From contig FN649743.1 of assembly GCA_000310025.1 (NCBI GenBank), positions 4,237,018 through 4,301,017 of the forward strand: 64,000 nt of DNA. Reading direction: 5' to 3'. Origin of the DNA: Ectocarpus siliculosus (taxonomy: Eukaryota; Sar; Phaeophyceae; Ectocarpales; Ectocarpaceae). Within the stretch, counting starts at the first letter, position 1; each line of letters begins with the position of its first letter. The position numbers and the translations under genes are program-made. The notes under the pieces were generated by a model. The model saw only the letters and a list, made by a program, of their open reading frames with translations, did no database searches and had not been told where the DNA came from. Shown piece by piece: positions 46,375 to 53,058 of this stretch.

Positions 46375-48054
46375 GGAATCAGCTCGAAACGATGTCATAT
46401 GCTTGTCTCATGCGTGTGAAGTTTGCGGTTGTTGTTGCTGTTCTTCCACCGCAATCATTATGAGTGATCGCCGCAGACTATGGTTCAGCCCAGGCTCTAA
46501 AGCAGAAGAACAAAGCCACATCTACGAAAGAGAATAGGGGTTGTCCTGCGCATCAAGTCAGTGTACTGATCAGGTAGCTGCCCTCGAACAACGAAGAACG
46601 AAGGTGTATCCTACTGCAGCGGTGTCGCGTGGACAAGCGTACGATGAGATTCATACCTACTAGATTACGTGTTTCCAAGCCACAGTGCAACTCAAACGAG
46701 CGAGTAGTCTGTGCATGAGAGCATAAGGTATTGCCTTCGCCGCAGCAATGACAGCAGCAGCAACAGCACTAACAGCAGCTGCGACAGCGGCAGCCATGCC
46801 CCCTTGCCTGCCTGTGCTATCGTGTCTTCGGGGATTCTGAGGACGACGGGCAACTAAACTACTGTACTGCAGAATATCGCATGCCAGGGTAGACTACAGC
46901 AATATGCATATGTACATCGTATCGTACAGATTTTCAGGTACATCGAATCAGTCCACAACGTAGTGCATGTCGTTGCAGCGAATGGCGTGTTCAAGAGCGT
47001 TCCTTTACGCCCGAACATTTTATCGTCCCAGCGACTTCATGGCTCCTTCCTTGTCGGAGAATCGGATCTCGACATCGGATATCGGATGCACAGAACAACC
47101 ATACAATCCCCGTGTTCTCTATAGTCTACCATTCCGAAGCCCCCAGGGTACGGTCTCCATGATACATGTGGACTGGCATCAGTGCCTTCTTTGAGCTGGG
47201 TCGGCGCTGGCCTCCGGAACCGACAACCTCACTGACTGTGTGTATCTTTCAAGATTCAACAAACACCCACACCTACAAAATAGTCTAATATCTCCGTACC
47301 TTGGCATCGGTATCACGAGCCCAAACCATCCTCCCCGCTCGTGCTTGCACCGTGGGCGAACAGCGTGTGGTTCATGCGCCCGTTAGTCCAATCCAACCTG
47401 TTTTGATTCGGGCGGGGGCGTGGATGCGTGTATGGATACCGTTACAAAAAAAAAAAATCAACTTGTACCAGGGTACTTTTGATTTGCCAAAACAGTGTAC
47501 AGTCCCGAGGAAAAGGAGAAAAAGAAAAGGTGGCGTGTTTGTTCTGTTCAGTTCCTCTGTCACAAAGACACAGTGGACTGCTGGTCCCCACCTTCTCCCG
47601 AATTCAGCGAGAGCCTCGACCCGATTTTGACGTTTCTGTTCAGCGGCCCGCCACAAACGGTGCCCGGTTTGGCGCTACGCGCTAGACTAGAGCTTCGAGT
47701 GATCCGTTGTTGGTTGCCCAAACAAAAATAATTGTGTTACCTATACAGTTGTGTTTTTGTACTTAGCACCAGCTGGCATCACTGGTATAAATCATCAGTG
47801 TAGACTTAAAAAAACTCGAAATAATTCCAGTACCCAGCCGGTTTTCCTCCACTCACTGAAAAGACTCCACCGCATCCCGTTCGACTGTGGGTATATCTCG
47901 AATGGGTAGTCTTTCTGTGTGTGTTTTTATTATTCCTTAATTGTGTATCCAGGGGGAAAAGGTGCTTCGGCAACAAGAAAACAAAAGCAAAGAATATCTA
48001 CAGTCAGGTCCACCCGGATCTACGGTACTGTACCACCAACAATCAAGTGTTTTA
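46375..48054. other. No gene recognised
   Basis: This should include the first exon and promoter of the GT61 gene. CAG/CAA-rich strings lie near 46746-46800. A 12-base A run near 47445 is followed by unassigned sequence; it was checked for a tRNA head and none was found. Confidence 0.4.
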
Positions 48055-48241
48055 TGTTTGGGGTGCTCGGCAGAGCATACTGTCTACGGGGCCTCCGGGG
48101 GGTACGCGGATGAAATGTGTTGATGGGCATGCTGCATGGCGATGGTGTTGCCTACCGCATGTCTCTCACTCTCTAATCAACAAAGGTCTTGAGTCAACCT
48201 TCTTTCTCTTTCGGCCTCTGACGGGCTACCGCACCCAAACA
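48055..48241 (+). repeat. 5' LTR
   Basis: 187 bases, TG...CA ends, matches 52188-52374 except at three positions. It presumably carries the promoter; no clear TATA element was identified in it. Confidence 0.95.
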
Positions 48242-48339
48242 CAATATATTGTATGGCCTGGTGTTGGTAGTGGGTATTGGCGTCTGAGCTGTATGTGCCG
48301 GGCCAATGGGGCGGCGAATACGATATATATAGCTAAGCT

Positions 48340-48480
48340 GGGACGTGGCCAACGGGGACGGGACAGCACGGCAGCGGGTAGTGTATAGCTGGGACGGTGG
48401 CCATCGGGGACCGGGACAGCAGGGGGTGTATTGCTGGGACAGCGCTTCAGGGCTGGGACAGCAGGGTACGGGATATTTTT
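48340..48480. repeat. Degenerate GCTGGGAC repeats in the leader
   Basis: The motif GCTGGGAC with variants recurs about five times, often followed by AGCAGG or GGTGG, between the 5' LTR and the gag start. The leader of a retroelement normally holds packaging signals, so a role in RNA structure is possible but not shown. Confidence 0.6.
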
Positions 48481-48492
48481 CAAGTGTAGACT

Positions 48493-50505
48493 ATGGCGGA
48501 GAGAAGCGGCGGAAAAGGAAGAGATTCGCAAAGGGAGGAGACTACAGTTGTGCGCATCAAGATGGAGGAGAGGTCGCGCAACGCAGCAGAGAAGCTACGA
48601 GCTGCCGAGTCGGAGGTGGAGAGGCTGGTGAAGGTGCTCAGAGCTGCGGAGGCTGCCGAGTATGAGAAGGAGAGACTTAGGCGGCAGCAACAACAACAAC
48701 AGCAGCAGCAGCGATGGAGTGCTCAATGGCAGCAGCAGCCATCGCAGGTACAGCAGTGTTCTCGTGGTGGTTTTGTCCTTCAGCAGAACCAACACTGCGT
48801 TTTCACTCAGAGCCACCAGGCGCGGCAGCACCAGCAGTTGGCGCGGCAGCAACAGCAGCTGCCGCCAACCGGAGTTGGTGGGATATATGACTGCGGGAGC
48901 AACGCCGTGTATTTCCAGCAGGAATCACCCCCTCCGCCTGGTACGGTATACCATTGCACTCGGTGCGGCAGGAACGGCCACCACGGCGAAGAATGCGCCG
49001 CACCCCGCAGGTTCGAGGGTACGTGCGGCGCCTGTGGTCAGTACGGCCATATGTGGTGGAACTGCGCCGTGCATCTTCATGGCAGCAGCGGCGAGGATGA
49101 CGGCCGTATCGTCCGCGGTGGCTGCTGGATGGGCGTCAATGGCGGCGGCAGCTGCATGGACATCGGTGGAAGCTCGGTCGTACAGCAGCAGGTAGTGGTA
49201 GAGAGCGAGTACCGCTCTGATTTTGTCGACCTGGTTCACGTTGGCGGCGAGGTGATGGCAGAGAGCGAGTACCGCTCTGATTTCGTCGACGTGGTTCACG
49301 CTGGCGGCGCTGTGGACGGTGATGATGACGGATGGTTTGGATGGAATGATTCTGTGGACATGGTTCACGCTGGTGGCAGTGTCTGCGATGATGTTTTCCC
49401 CGCTGCTGGGGCGGGAGAAATGGCCGGAGCGCCTGCGTTGGCGACTGGAGTGGCGGCATCGGCAGCAGCTCCAGCGGCGACGGCGGCGATCTCCGGCGGC
49501 AGTGTTTTCCCCGCGGCGGCGGCGGGGGGAACGGCCGGGGTCCCCGCGGTGGCGGCAGGAGCGGCGGCATCGGCAGCAGCTCCAGCGGCAACGGCGGTGA
49601 CCTCTGGCGACAGTGTTCCCCCCGCGACGGCGGCAGGGAGAATGACCCCAGTCCCCGCCGTGGCAGCACGAGCGGCGGCATCGGCGGCAGCTCCAGCGGC
49701 GACGGCGGCGGTGCCCGGCGACACTGTTATCTCCGCGACGGTGGCGGGGAGAACAACCGGAGCGCCCGCGATGGTGGTTGGAGCGTTGGTATCGACGGCG
49801 GTTCCAGCGGCGACGGCGGCGGCACCCGACGGTGTTGTTTCTCCCGCTGCGGCGGCGGGGAGAATGGCTCGAGAGCCCGCGCAGGTGGCTACAGTGGCGG
49901 CATCGGCGGCTGGAGTGGCGACATCGGTGACGGCACGACCCGCGACCGCGGCGACGGCACCGGCCGCTACGATGGCAACCGTCGGTAACGTTTCCCCCAC
50001 CATATCGGTTGGGGGGGCGGCCAGCAACGGAGAAGCGGTGGTCAACGGCATCGACGACGGTAGAGATGATGGCGGTTGGTGCGCAGGTGAGGTTGATGAC
50101 TGCTGGGGTGACAGCGTCTGTGGCGAGAGGGGGGCGTCCACGCACCCTTTCGATCCCGGCACCGTGTGTTCGGGGGTGCGCGGCGCCAACTATCCCGGGG
50201 TGGACGACCTGGTCGATGGCTCCAGCAGCAGTAGCGGCAGCAGCATCGGCAGCAGTAGCAACGACGAGGCAGAGGGGATGGATGTGGCCTGGTTTGGGGC
50301 ACTGCTGCGCCCCTTCGACCCGAGGAAGCTGTGCCGGCTGAAGGCTAGGAGAGTGGGGCTGGTGATGGGGATGGACACCCCGTTCGACCGTGGAAAGATG
50401 TCGCGGGGGCAACGGCCGGGGAGCCCGTGTTCGCGACCGGAACAACGACAGGAGGATCATGAAGCGGGGAAGGGAGTTCGGAGGACCGGGCGAGTCCAAC
50501 AATGA
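48493..50505 (+). CDS. gag: Gag-like protein with two CCHC zinc knuckles
   Basis: Length is 670 residues. Residues about 20-66 are charged and helical, likely a coiled coil, followed by a Gln run. Two CCHC knuckles lie at residues 155-168 (CTRCGRNGHHGEEC) and 178-191 (CGACGQYGHMWWNC), both fitting CX2CX4HX4C, which bind the element RNA. A 60-base tandem repeat (49201-49320) follows, then about four 111-base (37-residue) Ala/Val-rich repeats from about 49400 to 49940. The C-terminal part has three PFD motifs (HPFDPGTVC, RPFDPRKLC, TPFDRGKMS) and a basic end. After the stop another frame continues with RRIMKRGREFGGPG, so the natural end may lie further on with a frameshift. No protease motif is present. 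Knuckles normally lie at the C terminus of Gag; here they are in the N-terminal third. Confidence 0.85.
   Translation: MAERSGGKGRDSQREETTVVRIKMEERSRNAAEKLRAAESEVERLVKVLRAAEAAEYEKERLRRQQQQQQQQQRWSAQWQQQPSQVQQCSRGGFVLQQNQHCVFTQSHQARQHQQLARQQQQLPPTGVGGIYDCGSNAVYFQQESPPPPGTVYHCTRCGRNGHHGEECAAPRRFEGTCGACGQYGHMWWNCAVHLHGSSGEDDGRIVRGGCWMGVNGGGSCMDIGGSSVVQQQVVVESEYRSDFVDLVHVGGEVMAESEYRSDFVDVVHAGGAVDGDDDGWFGWNDSVDMVHAGGSVCDDVFPAAGAGEMAGAPALATGVAASAAAPAATAAISGGSVFPAAAAGGTAGVPAVAAGAAASAAAPAATAVTSGDSVPPATAAGRMTPVPAVAARAAASAAAPAATAAVPGDTVISATVAGRTTGAPAMVVGALVSTAVPAATAAAPDGVVSPAAAAGRMAREPAQVATVAASAAGVATSVTARPATAATAPAATMATVGNVSPTISVGGAASNGEAVVNGIDDGRDDGGWCAGEVDDCWGDSVCGERGASTHPFDPGTVCSGVRGANYPGVDDLVDGSSSSSGSSIGSSSNDEAEGMDVAWFGALLRPFDPRKLCRLKARRVGLVMGMDTPFDRGKMSRGQRPGSPCSRPEQRQEDHEAGKGVRRTGRVQQ
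49400..49940 (+). repeat. 111-base coding minisatellite in gag
   Basis: About four and a half units, marked by the shared block GCAGCTCCAGCGGC at steps of 111 bases. The unit keeps the frame (37 codons). Reading it on the other strand gives a long antisense ORF, which is a by-product of the G/C-rich repeat. Confidence 0.8.
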
Positions 50506-52187
50506 CGGCAAGCAGCGCGACTTCTGCTGGGGTCTTAAACTCGCCAAGGCACGTGATGTTTGTTTGCGTATTATTGTCACTTTTCTGAAAATTGTTTTGT
50601 GCAGGATGCTGTTCTTGTATTTTGATCTTCAGATACAATTCTGCATTTTTCCTATCGTTGGCACATTTGCAGGTTTAGATTTGTTTTTGTTTTGTTTTGT
50701 AGAGATGCCCACCCGCGTTTTACCTTGCAGGAACACTAATTTCCACGGCCAAATGGCAGGGAATCTCCATGGTAGATTATTGTTTTTCTGGGAGGCAAAT
50801 GGAATGTTGCGGCCGGGGGGCTGTTGTTTGCCAGGAAAATATCTCAAATGGCGGTGGTAGTATAGTTTCTGCGTACGGTTTGTTCCACTTTGGTTTTTCC
50901 TTCTTTGTTGGGATAACATTCTCTATGATAGTTACCGCTATGTTTTTCTGATGGTACTGGATATATGTAAGTAGGCGTTGGCTTGGCGTGCGACGTGCTG
51001 GGTAAAGACGTTGGGGGGCACGCACCGTTTCTCTGTCCCTCCGATGTACCGTACCCGACGAGTCAATCCTTGCGGAGTAGCAATTTTCCTTCTCAAGTAG
51101 GCCTGTACGGCAGACTGGTATGTGCTGGACGTGTGACGCCTTTTCTTTGATATGTTTTGTTTTCTTGTTTCGGTTTGGAGTTGATGAAGTTGGATGCAGA
51201 ATTGGCATGCTGGATTTTGCGGAATCACGCCTGATTGTTGCACTGCTGTCGGAAATCATGGGGGGGGGGATGTGATACCATGCTGTCCGCTGCAGCACAA
51301 CAAGCAGTGTTTCTGACATCGGGTGGTAGTTCATGTTGAGATTTTCCGTGTTTTCCCTGGGGATTTTATATGGAATTGATGTTGGCTAATGGGATTTGGG
51401 TAGTTCATGTTTGGATCGTTTTCCGCGTTTTACCTGCGGAGGTGACATGGAATTGAATATTGAATGTGATTTTCGTTGCGTTTATATGAGATGTCCCAGC
51501 AGGGGGGATGCGAGATTATTGATTGTCTGTTTTGGATTTGTTGGTTTCTTCATGTTTGTTTTGGACTTGTTTGTTTGGTTTCTTCGTGTTTGGGATGGAT
51601 GGATGTTACAGCAGGGGGGCTGCTGGTGCACTGGTATATTTGTCAAGGTATTGGGTATTGGAGGAAGGATTTGGCATGTTCTCGTAAGTCATGGTTGAAG
51701 CCTTTGTGCTTCCGAAGGTTATTTGAGCTGGTCAATGAGTTGAAACATGAATGTTTATCTGAGGAATTTGTTCTGAGTAAGTCAGGACGTTGGACACATT
51801 TTCCCGGAGTCACCCGTCCCCGTTCTGACGTGATTCTGATGTAATGTGTATCTTTGCTGGGTATTTTTCCAAGGGTATTTGTTTGTGTTTTGACTTCTTG
51901 AGAATTTGGTAAAGCATTTTTCTCAAGAGGGTGAACTGTTTATTGACAGACCTTTTAGGAGATAGTTATTTGATATCATCAGAAGATTTGAAAGATTTCG
52001 TAGAGCATGTTTTATTGGGAGATCGACAGATTTCGTAGAACATTGTTTTATTGGGAAATTGTTTGAAATGGAATGAATGGTGGATGATTTCCGTTTGGAT
52101 GCGTAGTTTGATTCATCGCCGTTTTACCTGGCAATGATAATCGTGGCGGGGATTTCGTAGATCGTATCTCGTACCGAGCAGGGGGGC
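50506..52187 (+). other. Non-coding 3' interior of the LTR element
   Basis: About 1.7 kb of T-rich sequence without a credible ORF, where pol would be in a full element. It holds degenerate direct repeats, for example TAGTTCATGTT at 51330 and 51402, and AGATTTCGTAGA at about 51990 and 52028. The 13-base string AGCAGGGGGGCTG at 51610-51622 recurs at the true polypurine tract. Confidence 0.7.
52176..52187 (+). promoter_or_regulatory. Polypurine tract
   Basis: GAGCAGGGGGG with a final C directly before the TG of the 3' LTR, the expected site of plus-strand DNA priming. Confidence 0.7.
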
Positions 52188-52374
52188 TGTTTGGGGTGCT
52201 CGGCAGAGTATACTGTCTACGGGGCCTCCGGGGGGTACGCGGATGAAATGTGTTGATGGGCATGCTGCATGGCGATGGTGTTGCCTACCGCATGTCTCTC
52301 ACTCTCTAATCAACCAAGGTCTTGAGTCAACCTTCGTTCTCTTTCGGCCTCTGACGGGCTACCGCACCCAAACA
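52188..52374 (+). repeat. 3' LTR
   Basis: 187 bases; differs from the 5' LTR only at three substitutions (GAGTATAC for GAGCATAC, CAACCAAGG for CAACAAAGG, CTTCGTTC for CTTCTTTC). Followed by the TTTTA target duplication. Confidence 0.95.
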
Positions 52375-52629
52375 TTTTATGTCCCTAAATATAATTTGAG
52401 AGCTCTCGTCGTCTTTACCAGGCCCTCCCATCATTTAGTCTAGTCGGGTCAACACTCCCGTGTTTGCAACTCCAGAGAAATACCCACGAACTTGATGCTG
52501 ATGTACGTCATCTAGTCAACGCGGCGATCCTGCACAGAATGGTGCGTTAAGTATTTTCCGTCCGTGGAGTGTGTGCCGTGAGTGAGATCAGAAATACTAC
52601 TGACGTACGCGGGATTGCTCAAGGCTATA

Positions 52630-53058
52630 CTTGCCCTGGTTGTCTAGTGGTAACCTCCAAACCGCTACAATAGTGGCAAAGTCGTGAGATCGAATACCCA
52701 TGGGGATAAGAAATTACGACTTCAGTGAGAGCGAAAAAAAGGCGGAAAAGCTCTCGTGAGTTACCAAACTTTGACGTTAGCACCGTCGACAAGGGAAAGG
52801 GACGGCTGGACCCTCCTCGCGATAAAAAAACACATATTCAGTGCGCACCGCAAACGCAAAGGGAAAGATGCGTACGAAAAAAAAGAAAAAAATCCTGATG
52901 TTTACCCCCTCCTGTGTCACCCAGGACGGTTGTACCGTAGTTATACGAAAAAATACACTGAAAAGTGTAGCACGCTACATACACTGAGCAACGTGGGACA
53001 GATCGCATCACGACAAATGTGGGGAATGTCGCCATAATAAATAAGACGAAAACAATAA
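52630..53058 (+). mobile_element. SINE family B, copy 2 (tRNA-headed)
   Basis: The head has A-box-like TGTCTAGTGG and B-box-like GATCGAATACCC. The body aligns with the minus-strand copy at 29230-29675: ACCAAACTTTGACGTT, GGACGGCTGGACCC, GTTTACCCCCTCCTGTGTCA and CGCCATAATAAA. Both copies stop matching just after ACGAAAACAA. The two differ by many substitutions, so they are not recent sisters. Confidence 0.75.

Follow-up and report, generated by a model that had tools for sequence, protein, structure and literature searches.

How can a long terminal repeat (LTR) retrotransposon that encodes no polymerase keep multiplying in a genome? The question is raised by a 64,000-nucleotide stretch of the brown alga Ectocarpus siliculosus (contig FN649743.1, positions 4,237,018 to 4,301,017 of the forward strand; hereafter the window), in which positions 48055-52374 form a structurally complete LTR element with one open reading frame (ORF) and no pol. 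An earlier note, made from the sequence alone, had read it as a recent element encoding only a Gag-like protein and mobilized by an autonomous partner. Our results indicate that the element very probably belongs to a non-autonomous lineage that descends from a Ty1/copia element and is mobilized in trans by a related 6.8-kb copia family, typified by copies L033 and L034.

In the scenario we propose, an ancestral Ty1/copia element would have lost its capsid, protease, integrase, and reverse transcriptase (RT), and the derivative would still carry the signals at its ends and in its leader that copying requires, together with an ORF combining nucleocapsid knuckles with a repeat from the polyprotein. 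Particles of the L033/L034-type family, resident in the same genome, would take up RNA of the window family and reverse transcribe it; its integration would duplicate 5 bp of target, and template switching in the shared particles would give rise to chimeras and mosaic evolution.

The window family and its copia relatives

We searched 189,456,909 bases in 492 contigs and scored the best 40 candidates in DNA searches and the best 66 and 90 in protein searches. The best 40 were 98-100% identical for the LTR (258 candidates), 91-100% for the 3' non-coding region (219 candidates), and 95-100% for the first 330 nt of the ORF (54 candidates); LTR, 3' region, and ORF start are thus all multicopy, and the element is part of a non-autonomous family of its own, as the earlier note had supposed. 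Exact 5-bp target duplications flank both ends of 14 of the 15 complete copies, the window copy included and L013 excepted, so the structure is not a product of chance. LTR pairs are identical in nine of these 15, and the three substitutions of the window copy are the most in any of them. L015 and L017, with part of the 3' end not covered, do not enter the LTR and duplication counts or the segment comparison, nor do L012 (a deletion) and L018 (a chimera) enter the codon-position and segment comparisons. Segment by segment, twelve copies are 96-100% identical to the window copy in the leader and the first 900 nt of the ORF, and 90-100% in the repeats, ORF end, and 3' region. Copies also differ in how many 111-nt repeats the ORF contains (e.g., L009), and L010 has an insert, L012 its deletion, and L023 N in the ORF; L012 and L018 lack the ORF start among 17 copies examined. 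Two old copies, L038 and L039, have LTR identities of 91-92% and about 84% identity over the aligned ORF and, though decayed, the same gag-only structure, so the lineage is not new. L040 is rearranged and was not used.

The L010 insert is 1422 bp long and lies in the leader (L010:2456-3877). Its inverted ends start CAGTAGCGGCTACGG, and TA flanks it on each side; it resembles what we take to be a non-autonomous DNA transposon of Mariner/Tc1 type. Frames of 4119 and 1689 amino acids on contigs C225 and C8, considered as pol-bearing copies, consist mostly of runs of N and were rejected.

The partner family was reached through the foreign interior of L018, which encodes a copia-type Gag with weak Retrotran_gag_2 matches; a search with it led to L033 and L034. 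In L034, Pfam profiles gave Retrotran_gag_2 above the cut-off at residues 178-279 (E = 5.9e-9), Pol_BBD just below it (25.3 bits, cut-off 27), a sub-threshold rve match at 856-956 (0.0005, 20.7 bits, curated cut-off 32.6), and RVT_2 (6.7e-43) in the frame that follows a stop codon, so that gag, integrase (sub-threshold), and RT follow in Ty1/copia order. Copies on contigs C24, C74, and C18 have both LTRs 100% identical to the query LTR, and 10 of 11 checked copies, all but that on C211, have exact 5-bp duplications. Over its whole length the 191-nt LTR of L033 agrees with the window LTR at 158 of 193 aligned columns (82%), whereas the last 75 bases contain one mismatch, leader bases 1-51 are identical, and a single difference occurs in the 33 bases leading up to the 3' LTR. 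Conservation between the families is therefore highest at the replication signals (LTR 3' end, leader start, and polypurine tract), which are the places where reverse transcription and strand transfer require fixed sequence. The search that the earlier note had proposed, for a full element sharing LTR, leader, or Gag, thus led to a pol-bearing family with LTR ends, leader start, and polypurine tract in common, and recombinants link the two families. A palindrome, CAATATATTG, adjoins the 5' LTR at 48242-48251, within the stretch common to both. Two further copia-type elements with exact 5-bp duplications, L036 and L037, lack gag and keep about 45 and about five leader bases, respectively.

Pieces of the ORF, the leader, and part of the 3' end all come from the copia family, and one element, L035, combines copia gag and RT around an internal deletion with LTRs 98% identical to the window LTR, without a target duplication. 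Both observations would fit a simple, recent internal-deletion derivative of copia without a lineage of its own, but we consider that reading very unlikely: 35 of the 193 aligned LTR columns differ, synonymous divergence (dS) in the knuckle region is 1.37, the decayed L038 and L039 have the same gag-only organization with ORFs about 84% identical where aligned, and the family ORF start occurs at 40 scored places (the best 40 of 54). The earlier note had held that pol-bearing copies of the same element would reduce it to such a derivative. Something close does exist, in the nearly identical LTRs of L035 and in chimeras that share the 3' half, but the main partner is a diverged lineage; the window family is therefore an old derivative turned lineage and not the product of a one-step recent deletion.

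Chimeras between the two families

One record of the partnership is L018, a hybrid of both families. Bases 1-110 of its LTR match the window type at 108 of 110 positions and copia at 89 of 120, with window-type unique 3' region (U3) in both LTRs, whereas its leader is copia (237/242, vs 204/262 to the window type), as is its gag (1202/1222). The 3' half is again of window type (ORF end 280/283, 3' region 1637/1684, 3' LTR 184/187), the junction falls in a shared CAG-rich block of about 20 nt, and an exact TGGAC target duplication stands on both sides. Reverse transcription copies the U3 of the 3' end into both LTRs, so L018 has the structure expected when RT moves between window-family and copia RNAs in one particle. 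DNA recombination between inserted copies might instead have joined the families; L013 and L035, without matching target duplications, suggest that DNA rearrangement may occur, and a second chimera was seen without its outer ends. DNA exchange, however, would leave the 5' LTR with a copia U3 and the element with unequal flanks, and the window-type U3 at both ends of a copia leader and gag, within an exact 5-bp duplication, argues against it; we regard this origin as highly improbable.

The second chimera (contig C3, 5988998-5994839) is copia through the knuckles (561 nt, 98%) and of window type past the repeat array (801 nt, 96%). Compared 100 nt at a time, it is closest to copia at first (98 and 100 of 100) and then, within the array, to window type (92 to the window copy and 100 to L009, against 88 to copia); in the steps that follow the two types barely differ (84/80, 68/68, 75/70) before the sequence becomes clearly window type. 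These matches place the switch inside the 37-residue repeat array, in an element seen incompletely, with about 1.4 kb between the pieces and both outer ends outside the sequence covered. On the preferred reading, trans-mobilization by the copia family, we infer from such hybrids that the RNAs of both families are packaged together.

A stop codon ahead of reverse transcriptase

Immediately ahead of RT, the copia partners have an in-frame TAG with CAR as the next codon (L034:4719-4721 and L033:4738-4740), with equivalent sites in related copia subfamilies. Anchored patterns, which allowed two mismatches and detected only copies close to the pattern, found TAG at the stop site in 93 of 96 matched places, and reversed control patterns matched nowhere. 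By pattern, TAG stood at 22 of 24 places (one TAA and one sense codon among the others), 64 of 65 (one sense codon), and 7 of 7; because CAA is part of the patterns themselves, the counts bear on the stop and not on CAA. The RT frame runs 471-473 residues from stop to stop in 72 of the 91 matches listed, the remaining 19 measuring 283-502, 909, or 1596 residues, and the RT matches fall into groups of 93-100% (one copy at 86%), 75-78%, and 57-59% identity. In ten chosen copies, 36-base pieces read TAG CAA CGA (three), TAG CAG CCA (two), TAG CAA CCA (four), and no stop (one, chosen for its long frame). Two of these three stop contexts fit UAG_CAR_YYA fully and the third at five of six bases; this sequence is given as a consensus for efficient readthrough in the pertinent passages of PMC3542737.

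The RVT_2 match in L034 begins at profile position 13, at residue 4 after the stop; little would therefore be missing between the frames, which suggests readthrough rather than an intron. RT sequences after the stop in L034 and L035 differ by a nonsynonymous divergence (dN) of 0.016 and a dS of 0.056, few changes but in the direction of constraint. With moderate confidence we suggest that the conserved UAG-CAR at the start of the RT domain holds RT and ribonuclease H behind readthrough, leaving Gag, protease, and integrase in excess, and that the window family exploits such an RT-limited particle system. To our knowledge, a stop between integrase and RT instead of between gag and pol would be a new mode of expression for copia elements. 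A partial search of the literature, including PMC12477816, PMC5009743, and PMC8226300, found no case of a stop between integrase and RT. Tca2 of Candida likewise must get past an in-frame stop to express pol, but as described in the relevant part of PMC2194720 that stop is a UGA between gag and pol, unlike the UAG between integrase and RT here. The conserved UAG-CAR stop before RT would also open recoding midway through pol to testing.

The open reading frame, its origin and its parallels

The features of the window element are listed in Table 1. The structure that the earlier note had described was borne out: the LTRs begin TGTT and end AACA with three substitutions between them, the TTTTA duplication is perfect, a polypurine tract precedes the 3' LTR, and the one ORF carries two CCHC knuckles without a pol domain. 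'Gag-like' proved too generous for its product, which has the nucleocapsid knuckles but no capsid domain found by Pfam.

Table 1. Features of the window element, by position in the window
Feature	Position	Strand	Remarks
Target-site duplication TTTTA, left	48050..48054	+	
5' LTR, 187 nt	48055..48241	+	final 75 nt differ at 1 position from LTR of copia partner L033
Leader bases 1-51	48242..48292	+	same as copia L033; probable primer-binding and leader signal
5' leader	48242..48492	+	initial 224 nt 77-80% identical to four copia copies
Single ORF, 670 amino acids	48493..50505	+	
ORF segment homologous to nucleocapsid part of copia Gag	48823..49068	+	
CCHC zinc knuckle 1	48955..48996	+	CTRCGRNGHHGEEC
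CCHC zinc knuckle 2	49024..49065	+	CGACGQYGHMWWNC
Ala-rich tandem repeats, 111 nt (37 amino acids)	49392..49889	+	homologous to copia-partner repeat between integrase and RT
3' non-coding region of family	50506..52187	+	
3' non-coding part 91-92% identical to copia L033 and L034	51555..52017	+	longer stretch 80% identical in L035
33-nt block ending in polypurine tract	52155..52187	+	32/33 identical to copia L033
Polypurine tract, directly before 3' LTR	52176..52187	+	GAGCAGGGGGGC
3' LTR, 187 nt	52188..52374	+	
Target-site duplication TTTTA, right	52375..52379	+	

Pfam searches of the window ORF gave no retroelement domain, the sole match being at chance level (E = 0.61), and no gag model up to E = 1; what the ORF retains is the CCHC knuckles with their homology to copia nucleocapsid. 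RVT_2 was likewise absent from the element by Pfam, so its assignment to copia follows from homology to copia elements. Capsid, protease, integrase, and RT are all missing, and the 154 residues ahead of knuckle 1 include many charged residues or Gln. Residues 126-192 match the C-terminus of copia Gag, knuckles included (55/71 identical in L033, 52/70 in L034), and rows of the Ala-rich 37-residue repeat match the repeat that the copia polyprotein has between integrase and RT at 35-59% identity, the best two rows per copia copy reaching 52 and 58-59%; the repeat DNA is 87-90% identical over the best L033 stretches. By homology, then, the ORF is built partly of pieces of the copia polyprotein, namely nucleocapsid knuckles and Ala-rich repeat, and its start may derive from the copia N-terminus, with a marginal match (E = 1.6e-5, against 5.5e-4 for the best of 100 shuffled pieces). 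Between the window ORF and L033 the knuckle region gave a dN of 0.29 and a dS of 1.37 (dN/dS about 0.21 over 156 codons), whereas along 465 nt of the 3' non-coding region the identity to L033 is 92%; these parts therefore differ in age, as expected with exchange of segments. ARAGORN found no tRNA in the window, in which a tRNA-like stretch was noted by eye at about 52635-52700.

Several results weigh against our account or narrow it. No clear counterpart in copia emerged for the ORF beyond about residue 510 or for bases 1-1050 of the 3' region; ORF pieces past the repeats had their matches in repeated or CAG-rich stretches, the best of them (2.8e-8) at the edge of the repeats. The partner is interrupted by a stop ahead of RT at 23 of 24 places, so its activity would hang on recoding that is unproven, and the choice of partner is only probable, the comparison having covered the L033/L034-type family alone among the copia families of the genome. 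Just 5 of the 17 copies examined (window, L009, L017, L019, and L028) have a full-length ORF, and no constraint by codon position is visible among the young copies, with 17, 18, and 20 variable sites at the three positions (15 copies, first 900 nt of the ORF). Also in these 900 nt, L014 and L020 have one-base insertions alongside identical LTR pairs, which may be assembly errors. The last three observations would suit a pure parasite whose RNA ends and leader alone matter and whose ORF is a passenger, a reading that we take seriously without favoring it. Several copies besides that of the window nevertheless keep frames over 700 amino acids, and the low dN/dS of the knuckle region argues against a mere passenger; this region looks constrained relative to copia, though constraint on the copia branch could give part of the signal. 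Codon-position differences of the old copies L038 and L039 are 22/30/36 and 28/20/31, and because these copies are decayed, selection on the non-autonomous branch is not separable. The even spread of variable sites over codon positions and the one-base insertions of L014 and L020 suggest that the ORF is probably not needed in cis, and it is possible that its protein serves in trans as an RNA-binding helper.

How does this lineage compare with known elements? Terminal-repeat elements with GAG alone (TR-GAG) were reportedly described from plants by Chaparro in 2015, and are defined by LTRs, a primer-binding site, a polypurine tract, a recognizable GAG domain, absence of pol, and multiple copies. 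The window family is alike in its LTRs (TG..CA ends and target duplication), polypurine tract, one gag-type ORF, lack of pol, and copy number, but differs in that no GAG or capsid domain was detected and the nucleocapsid knuckles alone remain, so the TR-GAG label that the earlier note had drawn on does not apply in its strict sense. The prefix RLG denotes Gypsy elements, so the wheat pair RLG_Quinta and RLG_Cereba belongs to Gypsy. There, according to the part of PMC11302176 that describes the pair, a non-autonomous element with a Gag ORF likewise shares LTR ends, primer-binding site, and polypurine tract with a pol-bearing partner, and the window family too has LTR ends, leader start, and polypurine tract in common with a pol-bearing family. 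Quinta keeps a clear GAG and is proposed in those passages to supply Gag (PMC11302176), whereas the window family is copia, lacks a capsid, and has direct chimeras with its partner. Other wheat elements (RLG_Sabrina, RLG_WHAM, RLG_Wilma, and RLC_Angela) are likewise presented in sections of PMC9744471 as non- or semi-autonomous and co-evolving with autonomous partners, with template switching proposed and, in one system, homology reduced to essential motifs, as here. Sabrina and WHAM are Gypsy elements described there as encoding Gag, and non-autonomous Angela has degenerate coding sequence (PMC9744471), unlike the nucleocapsid-only copia ORF of the window family. To judge from these parts of the two papers, wheat partnerships comparable to the window/copia pair occur mainly in Gypsy elements (PMC11302176, PMC9744471).

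Nor is this kind of element new to a brown alga, as the earlier note had supposed. Copia families with a single gag-homologous ORF have already been reported in Ectocarpus and some plants, in a section of PMC12477816 that also cites the TR-GAG paper, and the kind of element is thus already known. Copia-N1_Ec32 and Copia-11_Ec32 of Ectocarpus, compared by description only, are likewise Copia elements with a single ORF partly homologous to autonomous gag; the passages describing them (PMC12477816) name no partner and mention no chimeras, unlike what we found for the window family.

As a rule, the autonomous partner of a non-autonomous LTR element is deduced from the ends that the two have in common. 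In the present case the partnership is recorded in hybrid elements, and these copies supply unusually direct evidence of joint RNA packaging and copying. The pattern of conservation also marks the sequences that have been lastingly shared, namely the 3' LTR end, leader bases 1-51, and the polypurine tract. Together these observations suggest that a retrotransposon lineage can persist after losing its capsid while keeping the nucleocapsid part.

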